Assembly: GCA_021771635.1 (NCBI GenBank)
Contig: JAETOQ010000017.1
Location: forward strand, 1-36,834
Reading direction: 5' to 3'
From: Oscillospiraceae bacterium
Lineage (GTDB): Bacteria; Bacillota; Clostridia; Oscillospirales; Oscillospiraceae
DNA: 36,834 bases
Under the pieces are notes generated by a model. The model was not told the DNA's origin and searched no databases. It was given only the letters and a program-made list of their open reading frames with translations. Made by a program: the position numbers and the translations under genes. Positions 18,385 through 32,495 of this stretch are shown here, piece by piece; the first letter of the stretch is position 1, and each line of letters begins with the position of its first letter.

Positions 18385-20226
18385 TTAGCTGGTGTTGTCG
18401 CCAGAGTCGAGCTGCTCCTTCAGAATGGCAAGGCTGTCGGCAAACGGCTTGAACAGTTGGCCGTCTTCGTTCTCCAGTAGCGTATCTATCGGGATGAACA
18501 TGGGGCACTCCATCTCATGGTCGGTACACCGGGGAACGCCGTCGTATTCGGCGCAGAGGAAAAGCTGTGGGGCAAGGCCGGTGTCAGCTTCCATCGGCCC
18601 ACGCCCAAACGGTGTCAGGTTCTTCGGCCGGATACCGAACTCCTCCATAGTCTCCCGGATGGCGGCCTGCCTGGGTGTCTCTCCGTCCTCGACGTGACCG
18701 CCGGGGCCGCATATCTTTCCGCTCCCGGTGTCGCCCATGCGGATGCCGCACAGGACTTGGTTTCCATGGACAACGACCACACCGACAGACCCGGCCTGCT
18801 CCTGATCCTCGCCGTCTTCGGCTGTCTCAGGCAGGTTGAGGCCGGCGAGGGCATCCTTCAGGTCTGCCATAGTGTCGCCGCCGATGTCGCTCTCGTCAAT
18901 GAGCTCCTCAATGTCGAACTGCTCACTCTTGGCGAGGCCCCTCCTGACCTCGCTGGGGTCGATGGCCTGCATATCGCAATATATCTGGGCCGTCTGTGCC
19001 CGGATGTGCTCGGTGTTGGCCTTCTTCTGGTCGAGGTCTGCCTGCTCCATCTCACTGAGGTTCCAGAACGGCTTAAACTCCAGCTTGTACTTCGGTTCCT
19101 CCCGGAGCTGCTTGGTGTTCAGCCAGCCACGGAACAAAATATCGAGGAGCCTTTGCAGGTTCCCCTTTACTTGCAGGTCGCTTATCTGCCCCAGGTAGTT
19201 GTACCAGTTCTCCAGGTCGGACTCACCGGTGGAGTTCTCACCGGCGGGAGACCTGCCGAACAGGATCGTCTGCGGGATACTCGTTATAGCGGACAGCATA
19301 TTGCACGAGGCGTTCACGGCCTCGCTGAAGCCGCTCATCTGGAATGTCTGGAAGGTGTAATCCTCCCCATCGCCGTCAATGACGATGCTGTTCAGGATAC
19401 CACGGGCCATGTCGATGGTCTTCAGTCGCCTGAGAACCTCGTCATCACCGCCCTCCACGGACAGCGTACTCGTCAGGCCGTTCATCTTGTAGATGCCCTG
19501 CACAGAACGCTCCAGCAGCTTCGTCCCGTTCGCATGGTTCGTAACGGTCTCCCGGAGGGCTCGCTTGATTCGTGCGTACTCTGGCATACCCCAGAACCGA
19601 TACTCGGCCTGGGTGGTGGTCTCGGGCAAGATACCATTTCTGAAGACCAGACAGCGGCTCTCGTGGACGACGAAGTGACCGTACTGGCTATACACACGGA
19701 AGAACTGCGGCTTGCCGAATTTCGGGCGGAATCGCTTTGTCCCCTTGGGCTGCCCGTAGCTATACAGGTAAGAGTAGTCAGGCTCCACGACGGCCCGCTC
19801 AAACAGGGCAATCTCCTCAACGCCCTTAATGCTGTTCCAGTTCAGCGGGTCTTCCAGCCTACCGCCGTCATCAATCAGCATGACAGCGATGGCGCCGCCG
19901 AACAGCCTTGACCACTTGATGGCCTGAGCGGCCGTCGTCACCCAGTCAAGGTCTTCCAGAGCGTCAGTGACCAAGGATTTCACGTCCTCGTCGCTCAGGC
20001 CAAGGTCAAACTCCCTGGTAGCCGCCTTCTCAGCCGGTATGTCGATAATCTTCGTGAACAGGCCATTTCCCTCATAGTGTGAGGCCAGCGTCATATCGTC
20101 AACCATCGTCTCAGGGGCGAAGTGATAGGCTTCACCGTTGTCCTGAGCTGTGCCGAAGCGGTTCAGCACATTCATGTAGCCGTCATTCCGGGTTCCGCCG
20201 GTGGCTACTGCGTTCTTTTCGTCCAA
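18385..20226 (-). CDS. Portal protein (DUF1073) fused to Nudix hydrolase
   Basis: 613 residues from TTG 20226, eight bases after AAGGGG; GTG 20235 is in frame but touches the ribosome site. Residues 1 to ~440 are a DUF1073-type portal: FTKIIDIPAEKAATREFDLG, AAQAIKWSRLFGGAIAVMLI, TSIPQTILFGRSPAGENSTG, ENWYNYLGQISDLQV. It forms the ring through which DNA is packaged. From about residue 480 a second domain begins (SVGVVVVHGNQVLCGIRM) with a complete Nudix box at 510-532: G-x5-E-x7-RE-x2-EE-x-G-I. Nudix enzymes cleave nucleoside diphosphate-linked molecules with Mg2+. There is no stop or ribosome site between the domains, so this is a true fusion. The order TerS, TerL, portal is standard; the enzyme domain is not. 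Confidence 0.9.
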   Translation of the reverse strand: MDEKNAVATGGTRNDGYMNVLNRFGTAQDNGEAYHFAPETMVDDMTLASHYEGNGLFTKIIDIPAEKAATREFDLGLSDEDVKSLVTDALEDLDWVTTAAQAIKWSRLFGGAIAVMLIDDGGRLEDPLNWNSIKGVEEIALFERAVVEPDYSYLYSYGQPKGTKRFRPKFGKPQFFRVYSQYGHFVVHESRCLVFRNGILPETTTQAEYRFWGMPEYARIKRALRETVTNHANGTKLLERSVQGIYKMNGLTSTLSVEGGDDEVLRRLKTIDMARGILNSIVIDGDGEDYTFQTFQMSGFSEAVNASCNMLSAITSIPQTILFGRSPAGENSTGESDLENWYNYLGQISDLQVKGNLQRLLDILFRGWLNTKQLREEPKYKLEFKPFWNLSEMEQADLDQKKANTEHIRAQTAQIYCDMQAIDPSEVRRGLAKSEQFDIEELIDESDIGGDTMADLKDALAGLNLPETAEDGEDQEQAGSVGVVVVHGNQVLCGIRMGDTGSGKICGPGGHVEDGETPRQAAIRETMEEFGIRPKNLTPFGRGPMEADTGLAPQLFLCAEYDGVPRCTDHEMECPMFIPIDTLLENEDGQLFKPFADSLAILKEQLDSGDNTS

Positions 20227-20241
20227 ATCATTCACCCCTTG

Positions 20242-21645
20242 TTACGTTATCAACTGTCTGACATCGAAGGCGCTCTTGACCTCAATCTCTGCGAAGCCAT
20301 TGGCGGAGGCGTCCACCATGTCCTTGAACTTGCTGTCTGGGAAATTCTCAAGCTGGGTCAGGTATTCTTCATTCCAAGGTGCCGCCAGGATGTCGAAATT
20401 CCCTGCCTGCCACTGGGCGGCCATAGGCTCTGCCCTGGCCTCCTTGCTGCCGGACTCGGCGACCGTGCAGACATCAAAACCGGCAAGGAACTTGATGTAG
20501 CTCTGTGCCTGCTCTTTTCCAGCTTGTCCTGGGTCTTGAGGCAATCGGATACGCACACGCTTATAGGTGGCCCGGTCTGCCTGGGCCGTCAGCTTGATGG
20601 TCTTTCGGACATCGGAGGCGGACATCTGCTTGTTTATCACATCGGCCACGATGTATCGACCGTTCCGGCGCTTCCCAATCAGGACGCCGGCGGTATAGGC
20701 AGGATCGCCGCCCTCCGTCTTTTCGGTAGCGGCCAAGTCCCAACAGCGCACCCACCGAACTACATCGTTCGGAATGGCGTCCAGGATGTCGCCAAGCTGT
20801 GTGCGCTTGAAGAACAGGCCAGCAGCGGCCTTGATCTTCCAGTTGCCACGCAAAAGGCGCTCCCGCTCAATGACGGGCAGCGCCTTCAGGTTAGTGAGGT
20901 ATCCGGGGTCGATTCTCAGCAGGGCTCGGTTGTCGTATATGGAGGACATGATGAACGTGACCGACTTCGGCTCGCTGAGCTCCTCCGGGGTCTTCAGGTT
21001 GAACTGCTCCCACAGCTCCTCCTTGGTGTCGGCCCAGTGTACGACTTCCTCCCGACGGATGAACCAACGTATCTTGCCGCTCCGCTCCGGGATGGGGTAG
21101 CCGGTGTCCTGATCTATCCACCAAGCGATGAACTTCGCCACCCAGCTATCAGCGTCCGGGTTGCAGGTGGCCTTGACGTATGGCCTGACGCCACAGGTCG
21201 AACGGTTACGGGACAGCATATAGAAGAACTGGTGCTCGGTGAAGTGCGTCAGCTCGTCGAAGCACAGGCCGCAAATCTGGCTGCCCTGATAGTTGGGCAG
21301 CTCTGCGTCACTTCCGATGTGCTTGAACAGCACCTTGCCGGCGGGTCTGCCTCGCTTATCTCTGAACCCCCACTCACCATTTGACACCCTCGGCCGTGCT
21401 CCTCGCATCCCGCCGTACATCTTGGTGGCTTCATCCCACAGGCCGCCAGGAGAAAACACCTGCTTGTACGTCCTTCGGAATATCGTGCAGTTGAACTGGT
21501 CAACATTCTTGTACCGAAGGGCCGACAGAAGCAGGCCGTAGGTCTTTCCGCCACCAGCGGCACCACCGTATATCACAACATCTGCGGAGGACGCCATGAA
21601 GGCCGTCTGAGGCCCAGGCTGTGGCTGGAGTATAATCTTACTCAT
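20242..21645 (-). CDS. terL: Terminase large subunit
   Basis: 467 residues from ATG 21645, overlapping the previous gene by eight bases (ATGAGTAA). It is the packaging motor: an N-terminal ATPase and a C-terminal nuclease. Walker A is YGGAAGGGKT (residues 26-35) and Walker B is ICGLCFDELTHF. KATCNPDADSWVAKFIAWWI gives the coupling region. RCWDLAATEK begins the RNase H-like nuclease with its first acidic residue, and KDMVDASANGF near the C-terminus gives the last one. Length and motifs are complete. A frame extending 24 codons further upstream is not supported by a ribosome site. Confidence 0.95.
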   Translation of the reverse strand: MSKIILQPQPGPQTAFMASSADVVIYGGAAGGGKTYGLLLSALRYKNVDQFNCTIFRRTYKQVFSPGGLWDEATKMYGGMRGARPRVSNGEWGFRDKRGRPAGKVLFKHIGSDAELPNYQGSQICGLCFDELTHFTEHQFFYMLSRNRSTCGVRPYVKATCNPDADSWVAKFIAWWIDQDTGYPIPERSGKIRWFIRREEVVHWADTKEELWEQFNLKTPEELSEPKSVTFIMSSIYDNRALLRIDPGYLTNLKALPVIERERLLRGNWKIKAAAGLFFKRTQLGDILDAIPNDVVRWVRCWDLAATEKTEGGDPAYTAGVLIGKRRNGRYIVADVINKQMSASDVRKTIKLTAQADRATYKRVRIRLPQDPGQAGKEQAQSYIKFLAGFDVCTVAESGSKEARAEPMAAQWQAGNFDILAAPWNEEYLTQLENFPDSKFKDMVDASANGFAEIEVKSAFDVRQLIT

Positions 21646-22153
21646 CGCCGCCTTCGCCCTCCTCCCAGGCGCTTTCAGGCGGTTCCATGACTGGCTCCGG
21701 GCCATCTCCACGCCCATTATCAGGCAGGACTACGACCACATCATCCATGTCGTCGTCTCCTGATCCGCCTGCGGGCAGATAGGAGCTTTCGTCCATCTTG
21801 CGGATACGGGCCTCGCTCTCCTTGTCCCTCTGCTTCTTGTCCGGGTTGAAGCCGCCGTAGTCACAGAGGGCTCTAAATGCGCTGGCATCACCCTTTGCTG
21901 CTTGAATCGCCATCCCGACGATGATGCCGGTCAGGTTCGTCCGGTCTTCTTCATCTACTCCGACACTCTTCAGGGTGTTATCGAGAGGGATAACTGCTGG
22001 GGCCTCAAACATCCACTTTATCGCCTGCTGAACGTCCCTTTTCTTCCTGCGGGTCTCTCCGCTTTTCTTGCCACCAGCGGCCCCTCTCTTTTTTGCTTCT
22101 TTCTTGGTTCGGACTGGTTTGAGGTTCTGGGGATTCCCCTTCGGGTTCGCCAC
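21638..22153 (-). CDS. Probable terminase small subunit
   Basis: 171 residues from GTG 22153, with GAGG seven bases upstream. The very basic N-terminus (MANPKGNPQNLKPVRTKKEA, KKRGAAGGKKSGETRRKKRD) and a helical middle with AAKGDASAFRALCDYGGF are common in Firmicutes phage genes directly before terL. The last ~40 residues are highly acidic. It should bind phage DNA at the packaging start and feed it to TerL. The assignment rests on place, size and this basic-helical-acidic plan; no helix-turn-helix is obvious. Confidence 0.65.
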   Translation of the reverse strand: MANPKGNPQNLKPVRTKKEAKKRGAAGGKKSGETRRKKRDVQQAIKWMFEAPAVIPLDNTLKSVGVDEEDRTNLTGIIVGMAIQAAKGDASAFRALCDYGGFNPDKKQRDKESEARIRKMDESSYLPAGGSGDDDMDDVVVVLPDNGRGDGPEPVMEPPESAWEEGEGGDE

Positions 22154-22596: not shown

Positions 22597-23100
22597 TTAC
22601 AAATTGTTAAGATGCTCCGGCAAGCTGAGCTCAATCGCTCTCCTCTGGAGCGTCCAGTCGAACTCCCGGCCGGTCGGTACGAACCCAGCCAGCCGGAACA
22701 CTTTGAGCGACGCCTCGTTGGTCACATCCACGCAGGCAGTCACAGGAGCGATACCGTTCAGCCAACAATACTCCTCGGCCAGCCGCAGGAGCGTCGGGGC
22801 ATATAGCCTCTTACGGCAAGAAGGCCGGATGCTGTATCCGACCTTCCCATTCGCCTCGTAGTTGATGCGGGAGCTGATCCTCACCATCCCAACCAGGGCT
22901 CCGCCCACCAGGAAGCCGAACCGGCGGTTCCGCCGGTCGGCCTCCTGGCGTTCGTAGTATTCGTCGATGCTGAGGGTGGCGAGCTCCCACAGGACGTTCT
23001 CAGCTTCGCCGTTCTCAGTGAACTCCCTCCAGTACCCCTCCACCTCAGCCTTGTCCAGCGAGGTCAGGGGCAGCAGCTCAGCCGCTACCATTTCCACCAT
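22597..23100 (-). CDS. GNAT-family N-acetyltransferase
   Basis: 167 residues from ATG 23100, about nine bases after GGGAG; ATG 23091 is an alternative. The fold is that of GCN5-related acetyltransferases: an early strand, RFGFLVGGALVGMVRISSRI (strands 3-4), NGKVGYSIRPSCRKRLYAPT (where acetyl-CoA normally binds) and CVDVTNEASLKVFRLAGFVP, the typical N...S..VF...GF ending. The usual R-x-x-G-x-G/A loop is weak here. The substrate is unknown. It is last in a two-gene unit behind a strong promoter, next to the modification cassette, so it may act on a modified base, sugar or amine, or simply on a host protein. Confidence 0.8.
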   Translation of the reverse strand: MVEMVAAELLPLTSLDKAEVEGYWREFTENGEAENVLWELATLSIDEYYERQEADRRNRRFGFLVGGALVGMVRISSRINYEANGKVGYSIRPSCRKRLYAPTLLRLAEEYCWLNGIAPVTACVDVTNEASLKVFRLAGFVPTGREFDWTLQRRAIELSLPEHLNNL

Positions 23101-23105
23101 CCATC

Positions 23106-23819
23106 TCAACTCCCATCATCCGGGTCGGGGAAGTCTTTCCCGTTGTGCGTGGGGTCTGTCTCCCGCCCGGCCATGTAATCTTTCCACCGTTGGTCGTATG
23201 CGGGGGCAAGCCTGAATCCAGCATCGTGGCTCCTCTGGTAATACTCGCCGAAGCTGCCCTCGTCGAACAGGCTCATCTGCCGGGGCTCCAGGGCCTCATT
23301 CTCCTCAATGAAGAAGTCCAGCCTTGTCTTACCCTGCTGCTTTCCCCGGTAGGTATGGACATCGAACACATACGCCGGAACACGGAAGTTCGGTTCCTCG
23401 CGCATGAGCCGCTCAACTTCGGAGCTGTCGATCAGGTCGATGACCTCTCCCTCGGTCAACCTCCGGTTCCCCCACAGGTAGTTGCAGGCGACGTAATCGG
23501 CGTCCCGGTTCTTCCGGGCCATACACAGCAGAATCACGGCTTTTGCCAAAAACACCATGTTGGCCTTGTCTGCCGGCTTCTTCCCGTTCAGCCGTTCATC
23601 TGCCTGGGCCAGCGCCATGATCTCCCTGGTCATGATGCCGTAGCAGTCCTCAGCCGAAACGGTCAGGAGCCTATTCCATAGCAGCGTTCGGTATCCTGGA
23701 TACAGCTCGGCCGCCGCATACGCCGCATGGGGGATGTCGCACCGCCGTATCGCTTTCTGGATCATTGACGACATCTCGAACATACTGTACCCATTTTTAG
23801 TTCTCGGATTTCCAGCCAT
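23106..23819 (-). CDS. Stand-alone MgsA/RarA C-terminal-like protein
   Basis: 237 residues from ATG 23819, with GGAGG seven bases upstream. Residues ~10-115 (SMIQKAIRRCDIPHAAYAAA, NRLLTVSAEDCYGIM, MVFLAKAVILLCMARKNRDA) match the helical C-terminal domain of MgsA/RarA/WRNIP1 clamp-loader-like ATPases, with the characteristic S-A/S-E-D and LAKAV...L motifs. The AAA+ ATPase domain itself is missing. The rest (YVFDVHTYRGKQQGKTRLDF, FFIEENEALEPRQMSLFDEG) is unassigned; QMSLFD resembles a sliding-clamp-binding peptide (Q-x-x-L-F). It has its own strong promoter and is followed by the GNAT gene. A role in replication forks or repair is inferred. Confidence 0.7.
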   Translation of the reverse strand: MAGNPRTKNGYSMFEMSSMIQKAIRRCDIPHAAYAAAELYPGYRTLLWNRLLTVSAEDCYGIMTREIMALAQADERLNGKKPADKANMVFLAKAVILLCMARKNRDADYVACNYLWGNRRLTEGEVIDLIDSSEVERLMREEPNFRVPAYVFDVHTYRGKQQGKTRLDFFIEENEALEPRQMSLFDEGSFGEYYQRSHDAGFRLAPAYDQRWKDYMAGRETDPTHNGKDFPDPDDGS

Positions 23820-23902: not shown

Positions 23903-25117
23903 TCACGTTTGTTGCAAGTATTTTCCGAACATATCGCCAAAACATTCCGGCTCCCGCAGGCACTCTTTCGTCCTGGAGTCATACACGCCGAGCCTCGGGG
24001 TGATGAACTGCCGGGAGGTCACGAGAGAGTAGGCGCCGATGTTTTCAAACACGATGGTGTCGCCAACGGCCAGCACTCCGCAGTAGTCTCTCACCAGCAC
24101 ATCAATCTCCGTGCAGGTGGTTCCTACCAGATCGGCATTAAGCAGGCCGACCGGCTGGCCGGTTCCTGTCCGTATGATGCGGAAGGGCTTGCGTATCCTG
24201 TTGGCGTCGCAGTTATAGTCGAAGGCCGTGGCGGCGCCGTTGATGTCGAGCTGGACATACTGCTTGCCTCTGATCTCTTTGATGCCGACGACGTGGCTGA
24301 CACACTCCATGGCGCTGCCTACAAGGCCGATACCGGGCTCCACGATGAGCTTAACACTCTCATCCGGGAACGCCTTGGCAAAAAGGCCGCCGACCGCCTC
24401 CCCGTACTCCTGGTAGGTGTTCGGTCGGCTCTTGAACTGGGCCTTGAGCCCCTCCGGCATTTTCCCCCACATACCGCCGCCGAGGTCGATGTACCGGGCC
24501 CCGTACCGCTTCGCCAGATCTATCAGGGCCTCAGCCCTCTCCACCCAGCATCGGACATCCCTGCCGCCGTGGACGTGGCTATGGAAGCCGCCGAGCGACA
24601 CGAAACTGTTCTGGGATATGCGCTCCATGATAGCAGCAAAATCGCCCCCCTCCGGCGGGATACCGAAGCGGGACGTTGCCCAGGGCACGTCGAGGTTCAC
24701 ACGGATGCCGATGCTGATGTGGGTGGAAAGCTGCTGCGCCATCCAAGCCAGCCGCTCATACTCGGCCAGGCTGTCGATGTTCACCATCCCACCGACTGCG
24801 AGGACGGCCAGCTTGCCGTCGTCAGGAATGACGCCATTGTAGACGATCCTGCTTTCCGGGAAACCGAGGGCGCTGGCATACGAATACTCCTGGGGCGACA
24901 CCACCTCAGCGAAGCAACAGCGATCCCTGATGGCGTCGCAGGCGTCCTTCAAGTAGTTCGTCTTGAAGCTGTACGCCAGGGCGAAGTTTCCATACCTCGG
25001 CAGGAACGCCTCCAGCAGCTCGTCGATGTTCTGACCGAACCCATCCCGGTCGAACAGGTAGTGCGGATCACCGCTTGACCCGTATGGCGCCGATGTTGCG
25101 CTTCTTGTTATACACAT
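23903..25117 (-). CDS. Fold-III PLP decarboxylase (DAP decarboxylase-like)
   Basis: 404 residues from ATG 25117, eight bases after GGGGGA and 50 bases inside the end of the glycosyltransferase gene. It belongs to the alanine racemase-fold amino-acid decarboxylases (LysA, ornithine/lysine decarboxylases). ALAYSFKTNY (Lys52) supplies the PLP lysine. GFHSHVHGG, DLGGGMWG and IVEPGIGLVG bind cofactor phosphate and ring. TTCTEIDVL is the C-x-E variant of the substrate cysteine region, and FENIGAYSL closes the site. All key residues are present, so it is probably active and makes an amine from an amino acid, or acts on an amino-acyl group. A LysA role is unlikely in a phage. The ATP-grasp and glycosyltransferase neighbours suggest it supplies or trims a group for DNA modification (inference). 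Confidence 0.85.
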   Translation of the reverse strand: MCITRSATSAPYGSSGDPHYLFDRDGFGQNIDELLEAFLPRYGNFALAYSFKTNYLKDACDAIRDRCCFAEVVSPQEYSYASALGFPESRIVYNGVIPDDGKLAVLAVGGMVNIDSLAEYERLAWMAQQLSTHISIGIRVNLDVPWATSRFGIPPEGGDFAAIMERISQNSFVSLGGFHSHVHGGRDVRCWVERAEALIDLAKRYGARYIDLGGGMWGKMPEGLKAQFKSRPNTYQEYGEAVGGLFAKAFPDESVKLIVEPGIGLVGSAMECVSHVVGIKEIRGKQYVQLDINGAATAFDYNCDANRIRKPFRIIRTGTGQPVGLLNADLVGTTCTEIDVLVRDYCGVLAVGDTIVFENIGAYSLVTSRQFITPRLGVYDSRTKECLREPECFGDMFGKYLQQT

Positions 25118-25790
25118 AATACTTCCCCCATTTATTCCGCATAGCCTCCGTGAACTCCAGAAATGCCCGCCGGTCGTTTTTGGCTCCATCGTTCTTGTCC
25201 ATGAACGCCTTGACGCACAGGTACTTCGGCTGGAGGATGATGCGGTTATACATCAGTTCTTGCAGAGCCATGTCCACATCGGACGGAGTGAGCTCGCCCC
25301 GTGTGTAGGTGGCTCTCAGCTTCTTCTTGTTCACCCAGCGGATATGCCCAGGCATCCCCTTGAACTGGAACTCCCGGTCATACGCATACGGTGCCAGGGT
25401 CGGCTGGTCGAAGGCCAGCCCGAGGTCGAGGTCAAACAGGAGCTGGGCAATCCGCTCAACCTCGCTCGTGATCTTCTCCACGTCGGGGCTTCCATCAGGC
25501 AGCTCCAAGTAGGTCGTATCGCCCATTCGGTAGACGAACTTCTCGATGTCATCGTCAGCGATGAAAATGACATCCTCCGGGGTGTTGTTGATTATCCAGT
25601 ACAGGGTGGACATGAAATTCCACGCCTCGCCCTTCGGGATCGCCAGTATGTCGTCAACGCCGGCCGCCCGGTAGAGGTCGGCTTCCTCCTCCCGGACGAC
25701 ATAGGTGCAATATTCAAACAGGTGCTTGGTCATGATGGCGTTGGAGCGTTTGTACGACATACAGTAGATGTTAAACGTACTCGCACTCAT
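25068..25790 (-). CDS. GT-A glycosyltransferase-like protein, TAGT-like
   Basis: 240 residues from ATG 25790, eight bases after GAGGA and overlapping the ATP-grasp gene by 20 bases. Its features are FNIYCMSYKRSNAIMTKHLF, then TYVVREEEADLYRAAGVDDI, and DVIFIADDDIEKF with the metal-binding acidic cluster at residues 79-81. This is the pattern of GT-A-fold transferases. The Y-K-R start, VVRE...Y and IADDD motifs resemble the TET-associated glycosyltransferase (TAGT) family described in phages that glycosylate modified bases. No TET/JBP dioxygenase is in this window, so the accepted base, if DNA is the target, must come from elsewhere. The protein may use UDP-sugars; a phage UDP-galactopyranose mutase is encoded 5.6 kb upstream. 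Family call moderate, function inferred. Confidence 0.65.
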   Translation of the reverse strand: MSASTFNIYCMSYKRSNAIMTKHLFEYCTYVVREEEADLYRAAGVDDILAIPKGEAWNFMSTLYWIINNTPEDVIFIADDDIEKFVYRMGDTTYLELPDGSPDVEKITSEVERIAQLLFDLDLGLAFDQPTLAPYAYDREFQFKGMPGHIRWVNKKKLRATYTRGELTPSDVDMALQELMYNRIILQPKYLCVKAFMDKNDGAKNDRRAFLEFTEAMRNKWGKYYVYNKKRNIGAIRVKR

Positions 25791-26793
25791 AATACTTCCT
25801 CATCTTCAGACCATACCGCACGTTGATGTCGTAGCCGGTGATGTCATAGCCGAGGAGCTGCTTGCACCGCAGATACGGAAGGTTCAGGCCGGCCGCCGCC
25901 ACGAACGGGAGTGAAGCACTCAGCCGGGGGTTGACCTCCAGCAGCTTCACCCGGCCATCCTTCCCGAGCATGAAGTCGAAACAGGCGTTTCCGTCGATGC
26001 CAAGCTCAGAGCAGACGGTCTCGGCAATCTCGTAGGCGGTAGCGTTCTTCTGGATTTCTCCGAGCATCACGCTCCCGTAGTCCATCTCCAGGCCGACGAA
26101 GCCGCACCTATGGAGAACCTTGCCGGAGGCCGAGAGGGTGCAGACGCTGTAATCGTGCCCAGCGATGTACTCAGACAGGATGATGTCGCCGGCGTAGTTA
26201 TCGGCCAGCTCCTTCAGCATATCCAAGGTGACGAACCCGGCCACGCCGCACTTGTTCCTGAGCCTGATGTCCAGGCCCAGCTTCTCGTCCACAACAGAGA
26301 ACCCGTTCCCACCGCAGCTCTCCGGGAGCTTGCAGCAGAAACGGGTGTCAGGATAGCCAATCTCCCGAGCGAACTCATCCACGCCGTCGGCGCCCAAGAT
26401 CACTCTCTGGAGGGGCATATACTTGGCGAACCGCTCATACATGGCAATCTTGTTGTTCGCCACAGCCAGAGACTCCGGGGACGACACAGACACAGCCGTA
26501 CCGATTTCGGCGAAGCGGTGTGCGTTGGCGGCCATGATGGGGAGCTCGGTCGTGACGAACGGGAGAATCACATCCACGTTCATCTCATCGCAGATTGCCA
26601 GCATCTCCGGGATGTAGTCGGGATCGTCGCTCCTCGGGACAACGAAGGTATTCCCGCAGCCAGTCCCAAGCAGGTGGTTGGCGTTGCAGTCAGTCCCAAT
26701 CGTCCGTATCTCCTCGTGCTCGTAGTTATCGTGCAGGCACCGTTCAATGCCCTGGAAATGGTTGTTGCACCCGGTAATCAATACTGTCATCAT
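25771..26793 (-). CDS. ATP-grasp ligase (CarB-like)
   Basis: 340 residues from ATG 26793 (or the next codon, 26790), behind GGAGGGGG, 16 bases after the ParB-like stop. It begins MMTVLITGCNNHFQGIERCL, a Rossmann-like pre-ATP-grasp domain. NKIAMYERFAKY, RFCCKLPESCGGNGFSVV (the ATP-binding lysine and glycine loop) and IILSEYIAGHDYSV follow, then CFDFMLGKDGRVKLLEVNPR with the Mg-binding E...E-x-N-x-R. All core residues are there. Such enzymes form an amide or ester-type bond between a carboxylate and an amine, thiol or alcohol through an acyl phosphate. Here it is coupled to a glycosyltransferase and a PLP decarboxylase. An amino-acid ligase acting on a modified base or sugar is the most attractive reading (inference). 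Confidence 0.85.
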   Translation of the reverse strand: MMTVLITGCNNHFQGIERCLHDNYEHEEIRTIGTDCNANHLLGTGCGNTFVVPRSDDPDYIPEMLAICDEMNVDVILPFVTTELPIMAANAHRFAEIGTAVSVSSPESLAVANNKIAMYERFAKYMPLQRVILGADGVDEFAREIGYPDTRFCCKLPESCGGNGFSVVDEKLGLDIRLRNKCGVAGFVTLDMLKELADNYAGDIILSEYIAGHDYSVCTLSASGKVLHRCGFVGLEMDYGSVMLGEIQKNATAYEIAETVCSELGIDGNACFDFMLGKDGRVKLLEVNPRLSASLPFVAAAGLNLPYLRCKQLLGYDITGYDINVRYGLKMRKYYECEYV

Positions 26794-26809
26794 GTTCTGA
26801 CCCCCTCCA

Positions 26810-27424
26810 TCACAGGTCGTAGTTCTTCTTGCCGTCCTCCGGCTTCTTGACAATCTGGGCCTTCATGTCGTCGTACCAGACGGCCCGTGCCCGGATTTTC
26901 CTCTTCTTGGCGACCAGCACCTTGGCGTCGTCGATGCCCAGCGCCCTGGTCAACTGCAAGTAGTCGATTTCGTTCCGGCAGACGATCATCACATAGTCGT
27001 ACTTCTCGTACCTCATAAGCTCCATCATCTTGATGTTCCGCTCCTGCGGGCTCTCGGCAGCGGGGTCGATGCCGAAGCTCATGTTCAGGTCTGCCGTCCA
27101 GTCGGCAAGCAGGTCTAAATCCCACTCGCCTGCGTGGGTGTTGTCCTTAATGTTGATGGCCCGGAGCTCAGCCTCGGTGTAGCCGATAAGCCTCTTGCAG
27201 TCGAGCATGGTGTCGGGGCCATACCTTCGCAGAACAGCCTTGAGCCTTTGATTCCCACCGATGATGTTGTCATGCTCATCAATCAGGTAAATCCCGAAGT
27301 CCCCGAGCATTTCAAGGCTGTCGGCGAGTTCATCCAGCTTCTTCTTGCTGATCTTCCTCGGGTTCCCAAAGCCGGTCTTCAGGTCTCCGGCCCTCATTTT
27401 GCATACCTCTGTACGCTTCTCCAT
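26810..27424 (-). CDS. ParB-like N-terminal domain protein
   Basis: 204 residues from ATG 27424, with AAGAGG eight bases upstream; GTG 27433 is less well placed. The first ~110 residues are a ParB/Srx-type domain: NPRKISKKKLDELADSLEML, then IIGGNQRLKA (residues 54-63, the GG-x-(Q/R)-R nucleotide loop) and YTEAELRAINIKDNTHAGEW. The C-terminal part is basic (VLVAKKRKIRARAVWYDDMK) and unassigned. It lacks the DNA-binding and dimer domains of true partition proteins, so plasmid-like partition is unlikely. ParB-like domains are often found beside phage DNA methylation or hypermodification genes and may bind CTP or cut/handle DNA. It is the first gene of the four-gene cassette. Confidence 0.85.
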   Translation of the reverse strand: MEKRTEVCKMRAGDLKTGFGNPRKISKKKLDELADSLEMLGDFGIYLIDEHDNIIGGNQRLKAVLRRYGPDTMLDCKRLIGYTEAELRAINIKDNTHAGEWDLDLLADWTADLNMSFGIDPAAESPQERNIKMMELMRYEKYDYVMIVCRNEIDYLQLTRALGIDDAKVLVAKKRKIRARAVWYDDMKAQIVKKPEDGKKNYDL

Positions 27425-27464
27425 TGGCCGCACCTCTTTTCATAGTCTGTTAGGCTATCTTCGA

Positions 27465-27523: not shown

Positions 27524-28683
27524 ATGGAAAACAAACTGTTCTTCGTGTCGAATGGAGCTGCTCTGGAAATGAGCGAACAATCATACGAGGCGGAGAGCTA
27601 CCTCCAAAAAATCGTCGAGGACAATCCGCATCTACTGGCAAGGGCTTGGGGCGACAACGATTGCAGGCTGTTCCTGATTAAGCGGGAACTGGAGATTCTG
27701 GAATCAGAAGACGGCTCCAACTCCTATTCCCTGGATCACCTTCTGGTGGGTGAGGATGGTGTGCCGGTTCTCGTCGAGGTCAAGCGGAGCACCGACACCA
27801 GGATCAGGCGGGAGGTCATCGGGCAGATGTGCGACTACGCCTGCCGGGCCTGCACCTGGAAGGTGGACAAGCTGCGGGAGCTATTCATGGAGAACAACTC
27901 CAGCGAGGTCGCCGACGAGTTCGACAACGACGAGTTCTGGGGGCAGGTGGCAACTAACCTGAAGGCCGAGCATCTACGTCTGGTCTTTGTGGCAGACAAA
28001 ATCCCGGACACACTGCGGGTACTCATAGAGTTTCTTGACCGCAACATGGACGGGATCGAGGTCTACGGCGTCGAGGTCAGGCAGTACAAAACATCTGACG
28101 CCCTTCTTCTCTCGTCGAGCGTCATAGGCAACAGCCTCCTCGACAGCAAAAAGACGGGCCAGCCGGCCCAGCGAAGTTACCGGACATGGAGCGATGCAGA
28201 TTTCACGGACTATCTGCGGGAACACGGTCTCGGTGAGGTGGCCCCGGTCGTAGACGAAATTCGGAGCTTCTCAAAGGGCCTCGGCCTAACCTGCTACTCG
28301 GGCCGAGGTGGGAGCTGCCCGTCCTACGGCGTTCGGATGGGCGGCCAACGGCTCTTTACGGTAAGCTCGTGGTGGAAGAAGTCTGTCGGCTTTCTCTGCG
28401 AGGTTGACTTCTTCATTCCCTACGTCCTTCCTTCCCTCGGGAGCGAGTGGGACGAGGACAAGCTCAGGGCCTTCCTGACGGACTTACCAAATCGGAAGGG
28501 AGCCGACGGCAAGGACTATGCCTGGAACTCGCCCAGGACGCAGTACATTGACATTCACGCTTTCCTCGACGCTACCAACATGGAAGCCTTCAAACAAATC
28601 GTCAAAGACCTATGCAAAGCCCTCAAAGAATCGAATAGTCATAATATACAACAACAGCTTACCCCCCCCCCCCCCGAATTTAG
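27524..28683 (+). CDS. PD-(D/E)xK nuclease-like protein with poly-C tract
   Basis: The only rightward gene in the leftward part of the phage, with its own promoter. Near the N-terminus, SLDHLLVGEDGVPVLVEVKR gives D71, E85 and K87, followed by Q101 in REVIGQMCDYA. This is a PD-(D/E)xK nuclease core as in NucS/DUF91-like proteins. The C-terminal ~170 residues (WWKKSVGFLCEVDFFIPYVL and more) are unassigned. Fourteen C at 28662-28675 lie just before the expected end. In the sequence as given the frame runs on to 29356, straight through a strong terminator and antisense to the late regulator, which cannot be natural. One extra C gives a 386-residue protein stopping at TAG 28681-28683, which I take as the intended gene. 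Such an isolated, lysogen-expressed nuclease is a good defence candidate. Confidence 0.7.
28662..28675. repeat. Run of 14 C, possible phase-variable tract
   Basis: Fourteen consecutive C inside the 3' end of the nuclease-like gene. With 14 the frame reads through to 29356. With 15 it stops at 28681-28683. With 13 it stops at about 28790. Such long homopolymers slip during replication and are a classic cause of phase variation; they are also a common sequencing error. Confidence 0.9.
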
Positions 28684-30549: not shown

Positions 30550-31374
30550 TCAACCGAAAATCTCCCGCACAACGTCCTTTTTGCCCTCTGCAATCTTCAC
30601 CCGCCGAGACCCACCCTTGAAGTAGACGGGAACGCACATCTCCTGGATGCGAGAGTATATACGCTTATAGTCCATGCTCTTCGGGTCATTCATCTCGTCC
30701 AGCGTGAGGTTCGTGGTCACTATCAAGGGCTTCCTGGTCTTGTACCGCTCGTCCACGACGGCGTATACAATCTCCTGAGCGTACTCGCTCTGCCTCTCTG
30801 CTCCAAGGTCATCAATCACCATGAGCGGGAACCGCTTCATCTGGCTGATAATCTCAGACTTGTCCCACCCACCGTTGAGGATGCGTGGGAACGACGTGAC
30901 CAGGGCGGGGACACCACGGTCAATGAGGGCATTGGCGATGCAGGCGGCGGCGAAGGTCTTTCCATTTCCGACACCGCCCCAAAACAGGAGGCCGCTGTTG
31001 TTCTCAAGCACCTCGGGCCAGTGTTCGACGTACTTCTGACACCTGACGATTTCGGTGGTCTGCTCAGCTTTTGCGAAGGTGTACTCCCGGACGGCCTTGT
31101 CCTGGATGCCCTGCACCCGGAGGGTGCTGATGCGGCCAATCTCCTCCTGCTTCTTCAGGCGCCGCTGTTCAGCCTCGTACTTCTCGACAGCGCATTTACA
31201 CTGGCAGCTCACGATGTCCTCCTGGCCCATGAGGGTGACACGACACTGTTTCGGCGTGTGACACTCCCCGCAGTACAGCAATCCATCCTCTCCCCGGTAG
31301 TCTCCGGGCAGCTCGGGTGAGGCAATGGCGGCCGCCCGAGCGATAGCGTTGAACGCTTCCATTCCAAAGTTCAT
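30550..31374 (-). CDS. DnaC-like helicase loader ATPase
   Basis: 274 residues from ATG 31374, with GGAGGA seven bases upstream and a four-base ATGA overlap with the UDP-galactopyranose mutase gene. Two cysteine pairs near the N-terminus (CGEC 35-38, CQCKC 57-61) form a zinc site as in Bacillus-type DnaI and phage loaders. Walker A is FWGGVGNGKT (131-140), Walker B is MVIDDLGAE, and IVTTNLTLDEM is sensor 1. It loads the host replicative helicase onto the phage origin marked by the replisome organiser encoded two genes upstream. Confidence 0.9.
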   Translation of the reverse strand: MNFGMEAFNAIARAAAIASPELPGDYRGEDGLLYCGECHTPKQCRVTLMGQEDIVSCQCKCAVEKYEAEQRRLKKQEEIGRISTLRVQGIQDKAVREYTFAKAEQTTEIVRCQKYVEHWPEVLENNSGLLFWGGVGNGKTFAAACIANALIDRGVPALVTSFPRILNGGWDKSEIISQMKRFPLMVIDDLGAERQSEYAQEIVYAVVDERYKTRKPLIVTTNLTLDEMNDPKSMDYKRIYSRIQEMCVPVYFKGGSRRVKIAEGKKDVVREIFG

Positions 31375-32495
31375 CGGTCTTCCTCCAATTCCTTTCCGGC
31401 GGTGTCCAATGCGGCCCGGATCACCTGATCCATGTCGTAGTATCGGTAGCTCCCGAGTCGGCCGCCGAATGCCACGTTCTTCTCCAATGCGGCCAGTTCC
31501 GCATACCTGCGGTACAGCTCCATGTTGGCGTCATCGCCAATGGGGTAGTACGGCTCCTCTCCGGGGCTCCACTCATGGCTATACTCCCGGCTGATAACGG
31601 TGTTTGGCAGCTCCCGGCCAAGCTCGTCCATGCCGAACATGAACCACTTGTGCTCAATGATGCGAGTCCACGGGATGTCTCTCCCGGTGTAGTTGACGAC
31701 GGCGTTCCCCTGGTAGTTCGGGGTATCCAGAGTCTCCGTCTCAAACCGAACAGAGCGATACTGGAGCGGCCCAAGCGCATAACCGAAGTAGGCGTCGATG
31801 GGGCCGGTGTAGACAATCCTATCGGCCATAGCGTCGAGCTCCGCCTTCTGCTCCAGATAGTCAACACCCAAACGGACATCGACGCCCATGAGCATATTCT
31901 CCACCAGCTTCGTGTATCCACCGAACGGGATTCCCTGGTACAGAGCATCGAAGTAGTTGCTGTCATAGGTCAGCCGGACGGGCAACCGTTTGATGATGGA
32001 GCATGGGAGCTCCCGGCAGGGACGCCCCCATTGCTTCTCTGTGTACCCCTTGACCAGCTTTTCGTAGATGTCCCGGCCTACCAGCGAGATTGCCTGCTCC
32101 TCCAGGTTCCTCGGCTCCCAGCCAACCTCCCGCCGTTGCTTCAGGAGGATCGCCGCGGCCTCCTCCGGGGTCACAACTCCCCACATCTGGCTGAACGTCA
32201 GCATATTGAACGGCAGCGAGTACATCCGCCCCTGGTAGTACGCCATCGGCGAGTTCGTGAAGCGGTTGAACTCAACGAACCGCCTAACGTAGCTCCATAT
32301 CTGCCTATCGTTCGTGTGGAAGATGTGCGGGCCGTACCTGTGTACCGTGACGCCGTTCACTTGCTCGGTGTAGGCGTTGCCGCCGATGTGCCCCCGGCGG
32401 TCTATCACCAGACATCTCCGCCCAGCCTCGGTCATCTGCTGGGCGAACGTGGCCCCATAGAGGCCAGCACCAACAATCAAATAATCGTATCTCAT
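31371..32495 (-). CDS. glf: UDP-galactopyranose mutase
   Basis: 374 residues, full length for Glf, a flavoenzyme that converts UDP-galactopyranose to UDP-galactofuranose. DYLIVGAGLYGATFAQQM is the FAD-binding GxGxxG. RGHIGGNAY and YGPHIFHTND follow, and PIDAYFGYALGPLQYRSVRF and FGGRLGSYRYYDMDQVI carry the conserved tyrosines and arginines that hold the substrate phosphates. All core motifs are present. It overlaps the replisome organiser upstream and the helicase loader downstream by four bases each, so it is fully built into the replication operon. Galactofuranose could serve the phage's glycosyltransferase (DNA modification) or alter the host surface; the first is favoured by the accessory cassette but is not proven. 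Confidence 0.9.
   Translation of the reverse strand: MRYDYLIVGAGLYGATFAQQMTEAGRRCLVIDRRGHIGGNAYTEQVNGVTVHRYGPHIFHTNDRQIWSYVRRFVEFNRFTNSPMAYYQGRMYSLPFNMLTFSQMWGVVTPEEAAAILLKQRREVGWEPRNLEEQAISLVGRDIYEKLVKGYTEKQWGRPCRELPCSIIKRLPVRLTYDSNYFDALYQGIPFGGYTKLVENMLMGVDVRLGVDYLEQKAELDAMADRIVYTGPIDAYFGYALGPLQYRSVRFETETLDTPNYQGNAVVNYTGRDIPWTRIIEHKWFMFGMDELGRELPNTVISREYSHEWSPGEEPYYPIGDDANMELYRRYAELAALEKNVAFGGRLGSYRYYDMDQVIRAALDTAGKELEEDR

Follow-up and report, generated by a model that had tools for sequence, protein, structure and literature searches.

A ParB, glycosyltransferase and RarA_C-like core with swappable tailoring genes: a candidate phage DNA-glycosylation system

The window analyzed here is an entire contig (JAETOQ010000017.1; G000:C8 in our set) of 36,834 bases from a 2.8-Mb Oscillospiraceae assembly. 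Between positions 23903 and 27424 its minus strand encodes a ParB-like protein, an ATP-grasp ligase, a glycosyltransferase (GT) resembling the TET-associated glycosyltransferases (TAGT) and a fold-III pyridoxal phosphate (PLP)-dependent decarboxylase, which the original prediction took as one DNA hypermodification cassette. We found that the recurring unit is a different one. The ParB-like and GT genes, usually with a RarA_C-like gene, form a near-constant, same-strand core around which tailoring genes are swapped; the RarA_C-like gene, a GNAT acetyltransferase gene and a sugar mutase gene all lie outside the interval first singled out. On balance, the region probably represents one form of a modular system by which phages would glycosylate their DNA after replication.

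A near-constant core recurs in phages and prophages

The four overlapping genes of the original prediction are real: the open reading frames (ORFs) are complete, lie on the minus strand and each overlap the next end to start. Related sets, at approximately 30 to 87% protein identity, recur across further phages and prophages, some of them in a different order, which argues against a chance assembly; in L008 and L009 the order is ParB, decarboxylase, ATP-grasp, GT, unlike that of the window. Elsewhere the GT gene precedes the ATP-grasp gene (L052 and L053) or the decarboxylase gene follows RarA_C (L071), with gene content kept. We dropped the view of the four genes as a single fixed cassette, since the decarboxylase, ATP-grasp and mutase genes come and go.

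To define the unit, loci were gathered with GT profiles (32 viral and 19 genome loci), a ParB profile (47 loci) and a RarA_C profile, for which the best 80 of 325 relatives were used and which is therefore biased to the loci nearest the profile. The 171 loci bearing one or more core genes collapsed to 94 non-redundant units at 95% identity. In 63 units RarA_C had 5 kb or more of sequence visible upstream of it; GT was present in all 63 and a ParB profile match in 60, and the other three (L117, L124 and L127, with their copies) had, by eye, a ParB-like ORF before GT (NPNRH...GHGRLEAA). Where 3 kb or more lay upstream, RarA_C-anchored units carried GT in 36/36 cases and ParB in 33/36; where 4 kb or more lay downstream, ParB-anchored units carried GT in 28/29 and RarA_C in 26/29. 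The trio lay on one strand in 135 of 135 loci (redundant), with a median span of 3.4 kb and a maximum of 6.1 kb.

A gene-by-gene comparison of 12 records (ten viral records, of which G115 and G116 nearly duplicate each other across the core, plus the window and the Microbacterium phage Gina) gave the same picture. GT and RarA_C were present in 12/12 and ParB in 11/12; the record without ParB (G107) does have it in L019, where it had been missed by the choice of ORF. Tape measure and terminase followed at 9/12, integrase at 7/12 and all remaining families at 6/12 or fewer. In a collection of phage records, 56 Microbacterium records matched the RarA_C protein and 56 matched the GT, with identical host breakdowns (the lists were not compared record by record); 27 of the 56 list M. 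foliorum NRRL B-24224 as their host.

The glycosyltransferase is a divergent TAGT relative

The GT gene (positions 25068 to 25790, minus strand) encodes a 240-residue protein that the original prediction took for a GT-A transferase resembling the TAGT family. The fold is well supported: the AlphaFold2 model has a mean pLDDT of 90.5, and an acidic metal-binding motif (D79, D80, D81) is invariant across 43 sequences. When the model was compared with the viral structures in BFVD, the best match, at a template modeling (TM) score of 0.80, was unnamed. The named matches were mostly phage TAGT proteins (TM 0.66 to 0.75) and included a T6-type beta-glucosyl-HMC-alpha-glucosyltransferase (BGAGT) at 0.72. 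In the PDB, Foldseek returned generic GT-A enzymes, LH3 first, and the GT profile matched nothing among PDB sequences.

The window GT itself scored 17.6 bits against PF20691, below the 27.5-bit cut-off, and matched PHROG_842 weakly (0.002); 36 of 43 GT family members matched PF20691 at E ≤ 0.1, and all four same-slot GTs tested (L087, L102, L104 and L105, from viral bare-core loci) exceeded the cut-off, with 29.3 to 68.2 bits. The window protein, a confident GT-A model, falls below the threshold while these same-slot relatives pass, and we class it as a divergent relative of TAGT rather than as a member. It matched no named phage at E 0.01, so distant members were reached by profile and through partner genes. 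The slot GT of L087 matched the GTs of Quhwahvirus at approximately 1e-21 and, over its residues 11 to 89, the BGAGT of Citrobacter phage Ursula (E 7e-5), whose gene adjoins a thymidylate synthase gene; the Gina GT gave no TAGT match at E 0.01. A metagenome-assembled genome labelled uncultured Flavonifractor encodes a glycosyltransferase 99% identical to that of the window. For T6-like phages, the accessible passages of PMC13390438 attribute the second glucosylation to the TAGT gene as likely.

ParB-like and RarA_C-like partners suggest a DNA target

The ParB-like gene (26810 to 27424, minus strand, in an ORF that opens with GTG at 27433) matched PHROG_620 at 6e-19 and no Pfam family. PHROG_498, annotated as DNA methyltransferase, matched the protein at 7e-18 through positions 29 to 148 of its 633, that is, through its N-terminal part. 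The AlphaFold2 model is moderate (mean pLDDT 72.5), the C-terminal third being of low confidence. Its N-terminal part matched the ParB N-domain of pNOB8 (5k5d, 5e-5), ParB-CDP (6sdk, 8e-5), Noc and, at 0.02, sulfiredoxin, so that on structural similarity to the ParB N-domain it is predicted to have the ParB/sulfiredoxin fold. Residues N24, P25 and R26 and residues G60, Q62 and R63 are invariant among 41 relatives. Such a domain may serve as a DNA-targeting module for base-modifying enzymes. In many bare-core phages (e.g., L102, L104 and L107) the ParB gene is preceded by a conserved protein of approximately 97 residues (cluster d0, 19 members).

The third core gene (23106 to 23819, minus strand) encodes a protein resembling the C-terminal domain of RarA/MgsA. 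Its family profile matched the AAA-ATPase chains 3bge, 3ctd, 2qw6, 2r9g and 8g28 (E 0.003 to 0.035) and RarA itself (3pvs, 0.76). Of the seven PDB sequences that it matched at E ≤ 1, six belong to AAA-ATPases; one of the six is named RarA, and we take the others to be RarA-type. Matches to PF12002, the Pfam family for this domain, were weak: four of 38 family members reached E ≤ 0.1, the best at 0.0047, and the window protein had no match. The similarity is thus weak but consistent at the sequence level.

Taken together, the structural kinship to TAGT and BGAGT, the slot GTs that pass the TAGT cut-off and the ParB- and RarA-type partners are the reasons for reading the module as one that glycosylates DNA. 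In the proposed scheme, the ParB-fold protein, which may use a nucleoside triphosphate, would bring the enzyme to DNA, the TAGT-like transferase would place a sugar on DNA after replication, and the RarA_C-like helper, where present, would couple modification to DNA handling. In the window, a UDP-galactopyranose mutase would make UDP-galactofuranose and the GT would transfer galactofuranose; the ATP-grasp ligase would then attach an amino acid to the sugar, the decarboxylase would strip the carboxylate from the conjugate to leave an amine, and the GNAT protein may cap that amine. The modified product would shield phage DNA from nucleases. The genes with their families and folds, the recurrence of the core, the nesting of the tailoring genes and the gene for the donor sugar are observed; that DNA accepts the sugar, that this sugar is galactofuranose, that the steps run in this order and that the product protects the phage are inferred.

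Tailoring sets are swapped around the core

The ATP-grasp gene (25771 to 26793, minus strand; ORF opening at 26853) encodes a PylC/CarB-like ligase that exceeds the Pfam gathering scores of PF15632 (54.7 versus 29.1 bits; 1e-14) and PF21360 (PylC-like_N; 50 versus 27 bits; 3e-13), and its LLE-NPR motif is invariant save at one position in seven sequences. The decarboxylase gene lies at 23903 to 25117 (minus strand; ORF opening at 25189) and the GNAT gene (PF13302, 4e-10) at 22597 to 23109 (minus strand).

ATP-grasp was found in 28 of 73 trio units. The pairing of ligase and decarboxylase that had been proposed was borne out, as all 21 trio units with the decarboxylase also had ATP-grasp; so did all 16 with the mutase, and none of the 45 trio units lacking ATP-grasp carried either gene. 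Fisher tests gave 1e-12 for decarboxylase with ATP-grasp and 6e-9 for mutase with ATP-grasp, values that are overstated because related units were treated as independent. GNAT genes of two clusters occurred in 18 of 73 units, always with ATP-grasp (18/18). WbqC occurred in 16 units, none with ATP-grasp, and PIG-L in 16, of which 15 had WbqC and one ATP-grasp. A UDP-glucose-dehydrogenase-like gene and an epimerase gene were each present in 7/73 units, and 17/73 carried none of the ten genes counted. Outside the 73 units, L070 has the decarboxylase without ATP-grasp on a contig that starts within GT, and L158 and L159 carry PIG-L, ATP-grasp and the decarboxylase together. The sets swapped around the core are galactofuranose mutase/ATP-grasp/decarboxylase/GNAT (the window type), PIG-L/WbqC, UDP-sugar dehydrogenase, epimerase and none. 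On a GT tree of 74 rows (a quick tree with some long branches), tailoring class changed nine times, against a mean of 38.8 in shuffled data, and 0 of 200 shuffles were as low.

Two further arrangements were noted. In L059 (4870-5667), L091 (4468-5226) and other cluster d2 loci, a UDP-glucose-dehydrogenase-like protein of approximately 250 to 266 residues is encoded between GT and RarA_C; it matches the central domain of UDP-glucose dehydrogenase, in L091 also part of the NAD domain, and possibly oxidizes a sugar to a uronic acid. In L014 (1156-3323) and L015 (1-1858) GT is preceded by a tandem pair of ATP-grasp genes, which hints at two ligations in succession.

Galactofuranose supply and the order of the steps

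The window's UDP-galactopyranose mutase gene (31371 to 32495, minus strand; PF03275, 4e-77) lies approximately 4 kb upstream of the module, flanked by genes for a replication-initiation protein and a DnaC-like protein. Residues 3 to 367 of its 374-residue product matched TIGR00031 with 396.5 bits, above the equivalog cut-off of 303.75, and PF03275 has no second match in the host assembly. A mutase encoded by the phage itself makes galactofuranose the probable sugar in the window. Seven ATP-grasp-type prophages lack a mutase in the fetched locus (L042, L043, L045, L046, L047, L048 and L058, representing six units; several of these loci are short contigs), and in 7/7 of their host assemblies a mutase was found elsewhere. 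By comparison, a mutase is present in 12 of the 61 genomes of the window's genus that reach 80% completeness, and the 12 include G000, by way of the window's phage copy, and G033, the L046 host; some of the seven assemblies may lie outside this genus. Of four contexts read outside the prophage, L214, L215 and L216 look chromosomal and L213 is ambiguous, its mutase sharing a G033 contig with the cassette at a distance of approximately 45 kb. G122 has five mutases, one of which, on contig C6, is possibly the prophage's own. The phage-borne mutase and the mutases in all seven hosts make UDP-galactofuranose the probable donor of the ATP-grasp type.

The decarboxylase exceeds the cut-offs of PF02784 (3e-13) and PF00278 (4e-6). 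Its nearest solved relative is the N-citrylornithine decarboxylase 7kh2 (4e-56 with the profile; 5e-22 with the window protein alone), whose name denotes a substrate in which ornithine is conjugated beforehand, and the profile also matched BtrK, named as a glutamyl-[acyl-carrier protein] decarboxylase, at 4e-24. Against the family model for the N-citrylornithine decarboxylase FslC (NF041039) it scored 88.5 bits, below the 500-bit cut-off. The residue following the aligned Cys, which we take to be catalytic, is Thr in the window protein and Met in 7kh2, as opposed to Glu in diaminopimelate decarboxylase (2p3e); this next residue presumably helps to bind a free second amine. The N-citrylornithine-like kinship, the residue after Cys and the restriction to ATP-grasp cassettes favor ligation before decarboxylation. 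In a variant of the scheme the decarboxylase would act on a free amino acid and the ligase would then join the resulting amine or omega-amino acid. Most of the solved fold-III enzymes matched are indeed named diaminopimelate, ornithine or lysine decarboxylases, which speaks for this order, but given the identity of the closest relative, the match to BtrK and the Thr/Met position, we think it unlikely, if by no means negligible. Decarboxylase homologues with 21 to 26% identity also occur in ten phage records (OR844989.1, 232343-233479, and nine others), two of them annotated as lysA diaminopimelate decarboxylase.

Acceptor and starting base

Several observations weigh against DNA glycosylation by this module, beginning with those on the starting base. 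Thymidylate synthase (PF00303) was absent from all 42 phage records searched (0/18 and 0/24), many of which are perhaps fragments; three named records (W01 to W03) were covered whole. The 2OG-oxygenase family PF13640 was absent from 24 phage records, and no TET/JBP dioxygenase was detected in 32 records and genomes, a search in which the control genomes were silent too. The core itself is not without gaps. Of the ParB-anchored units that missed a partner, L158 showed no RarA_C in the 0.9 kb of contig left, L159 has GT followed directly by small and large terminase with RarA_C absent, and L178 has ParB with neither GT nor RarA_C. Streptococcus phage Javan291 shows ParB and GT but no annotated RarA_C, with a gene labelled "DNA modification methylase" and the GT standing two genes ahead of terminase, and Arthrobacter phage KellEzio has a distant RarA_C-like gene with no annotated GT or ParB nearby. 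The tailoring sets are not strictly exclusive, as PIG-L and ATP-grasp stand together in L082, L158 and L159, and the clustering of tailoring class on the GT tree could equally reflect co-inheritance of whole cassettes. To these can be added the window GT's score below the TAGT cut-off and the fact that loci for surface polysaccharides, too, typically contain PIG-L, WbqC, UDP-galactopyranose mutase, GNAT and CarB-like ATP-grasp genes.

The last point favors a different role, namely lysogenic conversion or superinfection exclusion through changes to a small molecule or to a glycan on the host surface. PglD/NeuD-like genes likewise recall surface-sugar loci, and the nuclease-like gene next to the module resembles a defense candidate (see below); moreover, the mutase of Agrobacterium phage Atu_ph04 is read by its authors, in the part of PMC6630229 available, as a cell-wall gene. 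Against this, the genes run in a phage operon toward terminase, with a terminase-type cluster at most five genes downstream of RarA_C in 48 of 50 first-survey loci (by landmark or by eye), and the core has ParB- and RarA-type partners and is also found in Quhwahvirus. No flippase, polymerase or lipid-linked first transferase was recognized in the ORF lists, although no model search was aimed at them. We regard such a surface or small-molecule role as improbable. The idea that the genes sit mainly in non-phage surface-sugar clusters fared poorly in the first survey and less so among the bare-core loci, where a terminase-type cluster was near RarA_C in just 22/59, a further point against the favored reading.

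Proximity to terminase in the first survey also fits a module whose target is a phage protein, either part of the virion or bound to DNA; ParB and RarA_C would then position the enzyme at the DNA or packaging machine, and the tailoring enzymes would decorate a protein glycan. GT-A enzymes commonly act on proteins, and the PDB matches, with LH3 first, are generic. The nearest named viral structural kin, however, are TAGTs, one of them a T6-type DNA glucosyltransferase, and outside the trio the most widespread families reach 9 of the 12 whole records; this explanation seems to us a poor bet.

If DNA is the acceptor, then either the core acts on plain DNA or different or unrecognized enzymes hydroxylate the base. 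A hydroxylase shared by these phages was considered and is not supported: PF00303 and PF13640 were absent, and no non-structural partner outside the trio occurs in more than 7/12 whole records. The co-occurrence survey called for by the original prediction thus showed the genes recurring together in phages, and the hydroxylase partner was not found. In Gina, a complete genome, no hydroxymethylase, DNA polymerase or integrase is among the annotated products. PF00303 was present in 9/14 cellular genomes, as expected for hosts; its matches in G000 (two, on other contigs) and G124 (one) have chromosome-like surroundings by eye, with no module genes seen. With neither hydroxylase homologues nor a common non-structural family found, the core may act on an un-hydroxylated base.

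In the other variant, the sugar goes onto a 5-hydroxymethyl- or 5-hydroxy-pyrimidine made by an unrecognized or unshared hydroxylase elsewhere in the phage or host. The phage DNA glycosyltransferases discussed in the available passages of PMC13390438 use such hydroxyls, the records may be fragments, many genes are hypothetical, and the accessible part of PMC6630229 reports a genome, that of Atu_ph04, combining mutase, thymidylate synthase and glycosyltransferase. The searches above and the chromosome-like position of the host's two PF00303 matches speak against it, and we consider it a distinct possibility, somewhat short of even. Returning to the glycosylation of plain DNA, its most specific form is that the ParB-like protein, the TAGT-like GT and usually RarA_C constitute a self-contained post-replicative system for an ordinary, un-hydroxylated base with interchangeable sugar and tailoring genes, and that DNA of the window phage carries (amino)acyl- or aminoalkyl-galactofuranose; taken as a whole, this is rather doubtful. 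To our knowledge, galactofuranose in DNA would be the first case.

Phage setting and neighboring genes

The phage setting of the original prediction is supported, with phage structural genes in the window and homologues in further phages and prophages. By PHROG matches the window encodes terminase, portal, head, tail sheath, tape measure and baseplate proteins together with a serine-type integrase, which marks the phage as temperate and its tail as contractile. Neither a lysis gene nor a tail-fiber gene was identified among the PHROG matches, and the contig terminus falls inside the baseplate region. Downstream of the decarboxylase gene, the RarA_C-like gene, the GNAT gene, a gene for a small phage protein, that of the probable small terminase and that of the large terminase (20242 to 21717, minus strand; PHROG_979, 5e-153) follow in the same direction. 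The portal gene (18385 to 20235, minus strand) encodes a protein whose residues 484 to 588 additionally match the NUDIX hydrolase PHROG_1198 (3e-11).

Just upstream of ParB, on the plus strand, a nuclease-like gene (c10) starts at 27524 in an ORF running to 29356 (610 residues). Relatives include one of 385 residues in L010 (5817-6974, minus strand), shorter than the window ORF. Both match the PADLOC candidate defense family PDC-S11 (9e-20 for L010; 6e-14 for the window), and an LVEVKR motif with an upstream D, noted by eye, suggests a PD-(D/E)XK nuclease. The gene is present in 5/73 trio units.

Discussion and comparison with known systems

If the DNA-glycosylation reading is correct, phages of Bacillota, Bacteroidota and actinobacterial (Microbacterium) hosts share a DNA-modification core that needs no recognized base hydroxylase and accepts several interchangeable tailoring sets. 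It would add galactofuranose, deacetylated amino-sugars and perhaps uronic acids to the sugars of DNA, and would offer new DNA-labelling tools and a counter-defense layer in prophages. In the accessible literature, which excluded most subscription journals, we found no report joining these module genes.

The amine-leaving chemistry proposed here has a counterpart in the thymidine hypermodifications of phages ViI, M6 and phiW-14, in which an amino acid is placed on a DNA base and PLP-dependent steps leave an amine. Those pathways start from hydroxymethyluracil with a DNA kinase, and we know of no sugar or ATP-grasp enzyme in them, unlike in the window. Conjugation of an amino acid followed by its decarboxylation by a fold-III PLP enzyme is also found in the pathways of rhizoferrin (N-citrylornithine decarboxylase) and butirosin (BtrJ/BtrK), represented among the decarboxylase matches by the structures 7kh2, 2j66 and 7ru7; these are small-molecule pathways and involve neither DNA nor phage.

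Among DNA glycosyltransferases, the T6-type BGAGT/TAGT enzymes (PF20691, PHROG_842) share the GT-A fold with the window GT, at the TM scores given above. They differ in that the Ursula gene stands beside thymidylate synthase, none of which was found with the window module, and in that the window GT has ParB and RarA_C partners and scores below the Pfam cut-off. The glycosylated cytosine of T-even phages and Mosigvirus, as described in the available passages of PMC13390438, likewise combines phage sugar-supply genes with DNA glycosyltransferases. There, thymidylate-synthase-family enzymes hydroxylate at the mononucleotide stage, whereas no such homologue was found in the module phages, and those passages mention no galactofuranose, ligase or decarboxylase, unlike the window.

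A counterpart in gene order is that of Quhwahvirus, represented by the Microbacterium phages Gina and Paschalis, in which ParB, GT, a UDP-glucose-dehydrogenase-like gene and RarA_C follow one another. ATP-grasp, decarboxylase and mutase are not annotated in that cassette. In the Gina record the cassette occupies the right end and terminase the left. The Quhwahvirus GTs are 19 to 20% and the ParB-like proteins 27 to 28% identical to those of the window, and because related Microbacterium phages have been isolated, the module is testable now.

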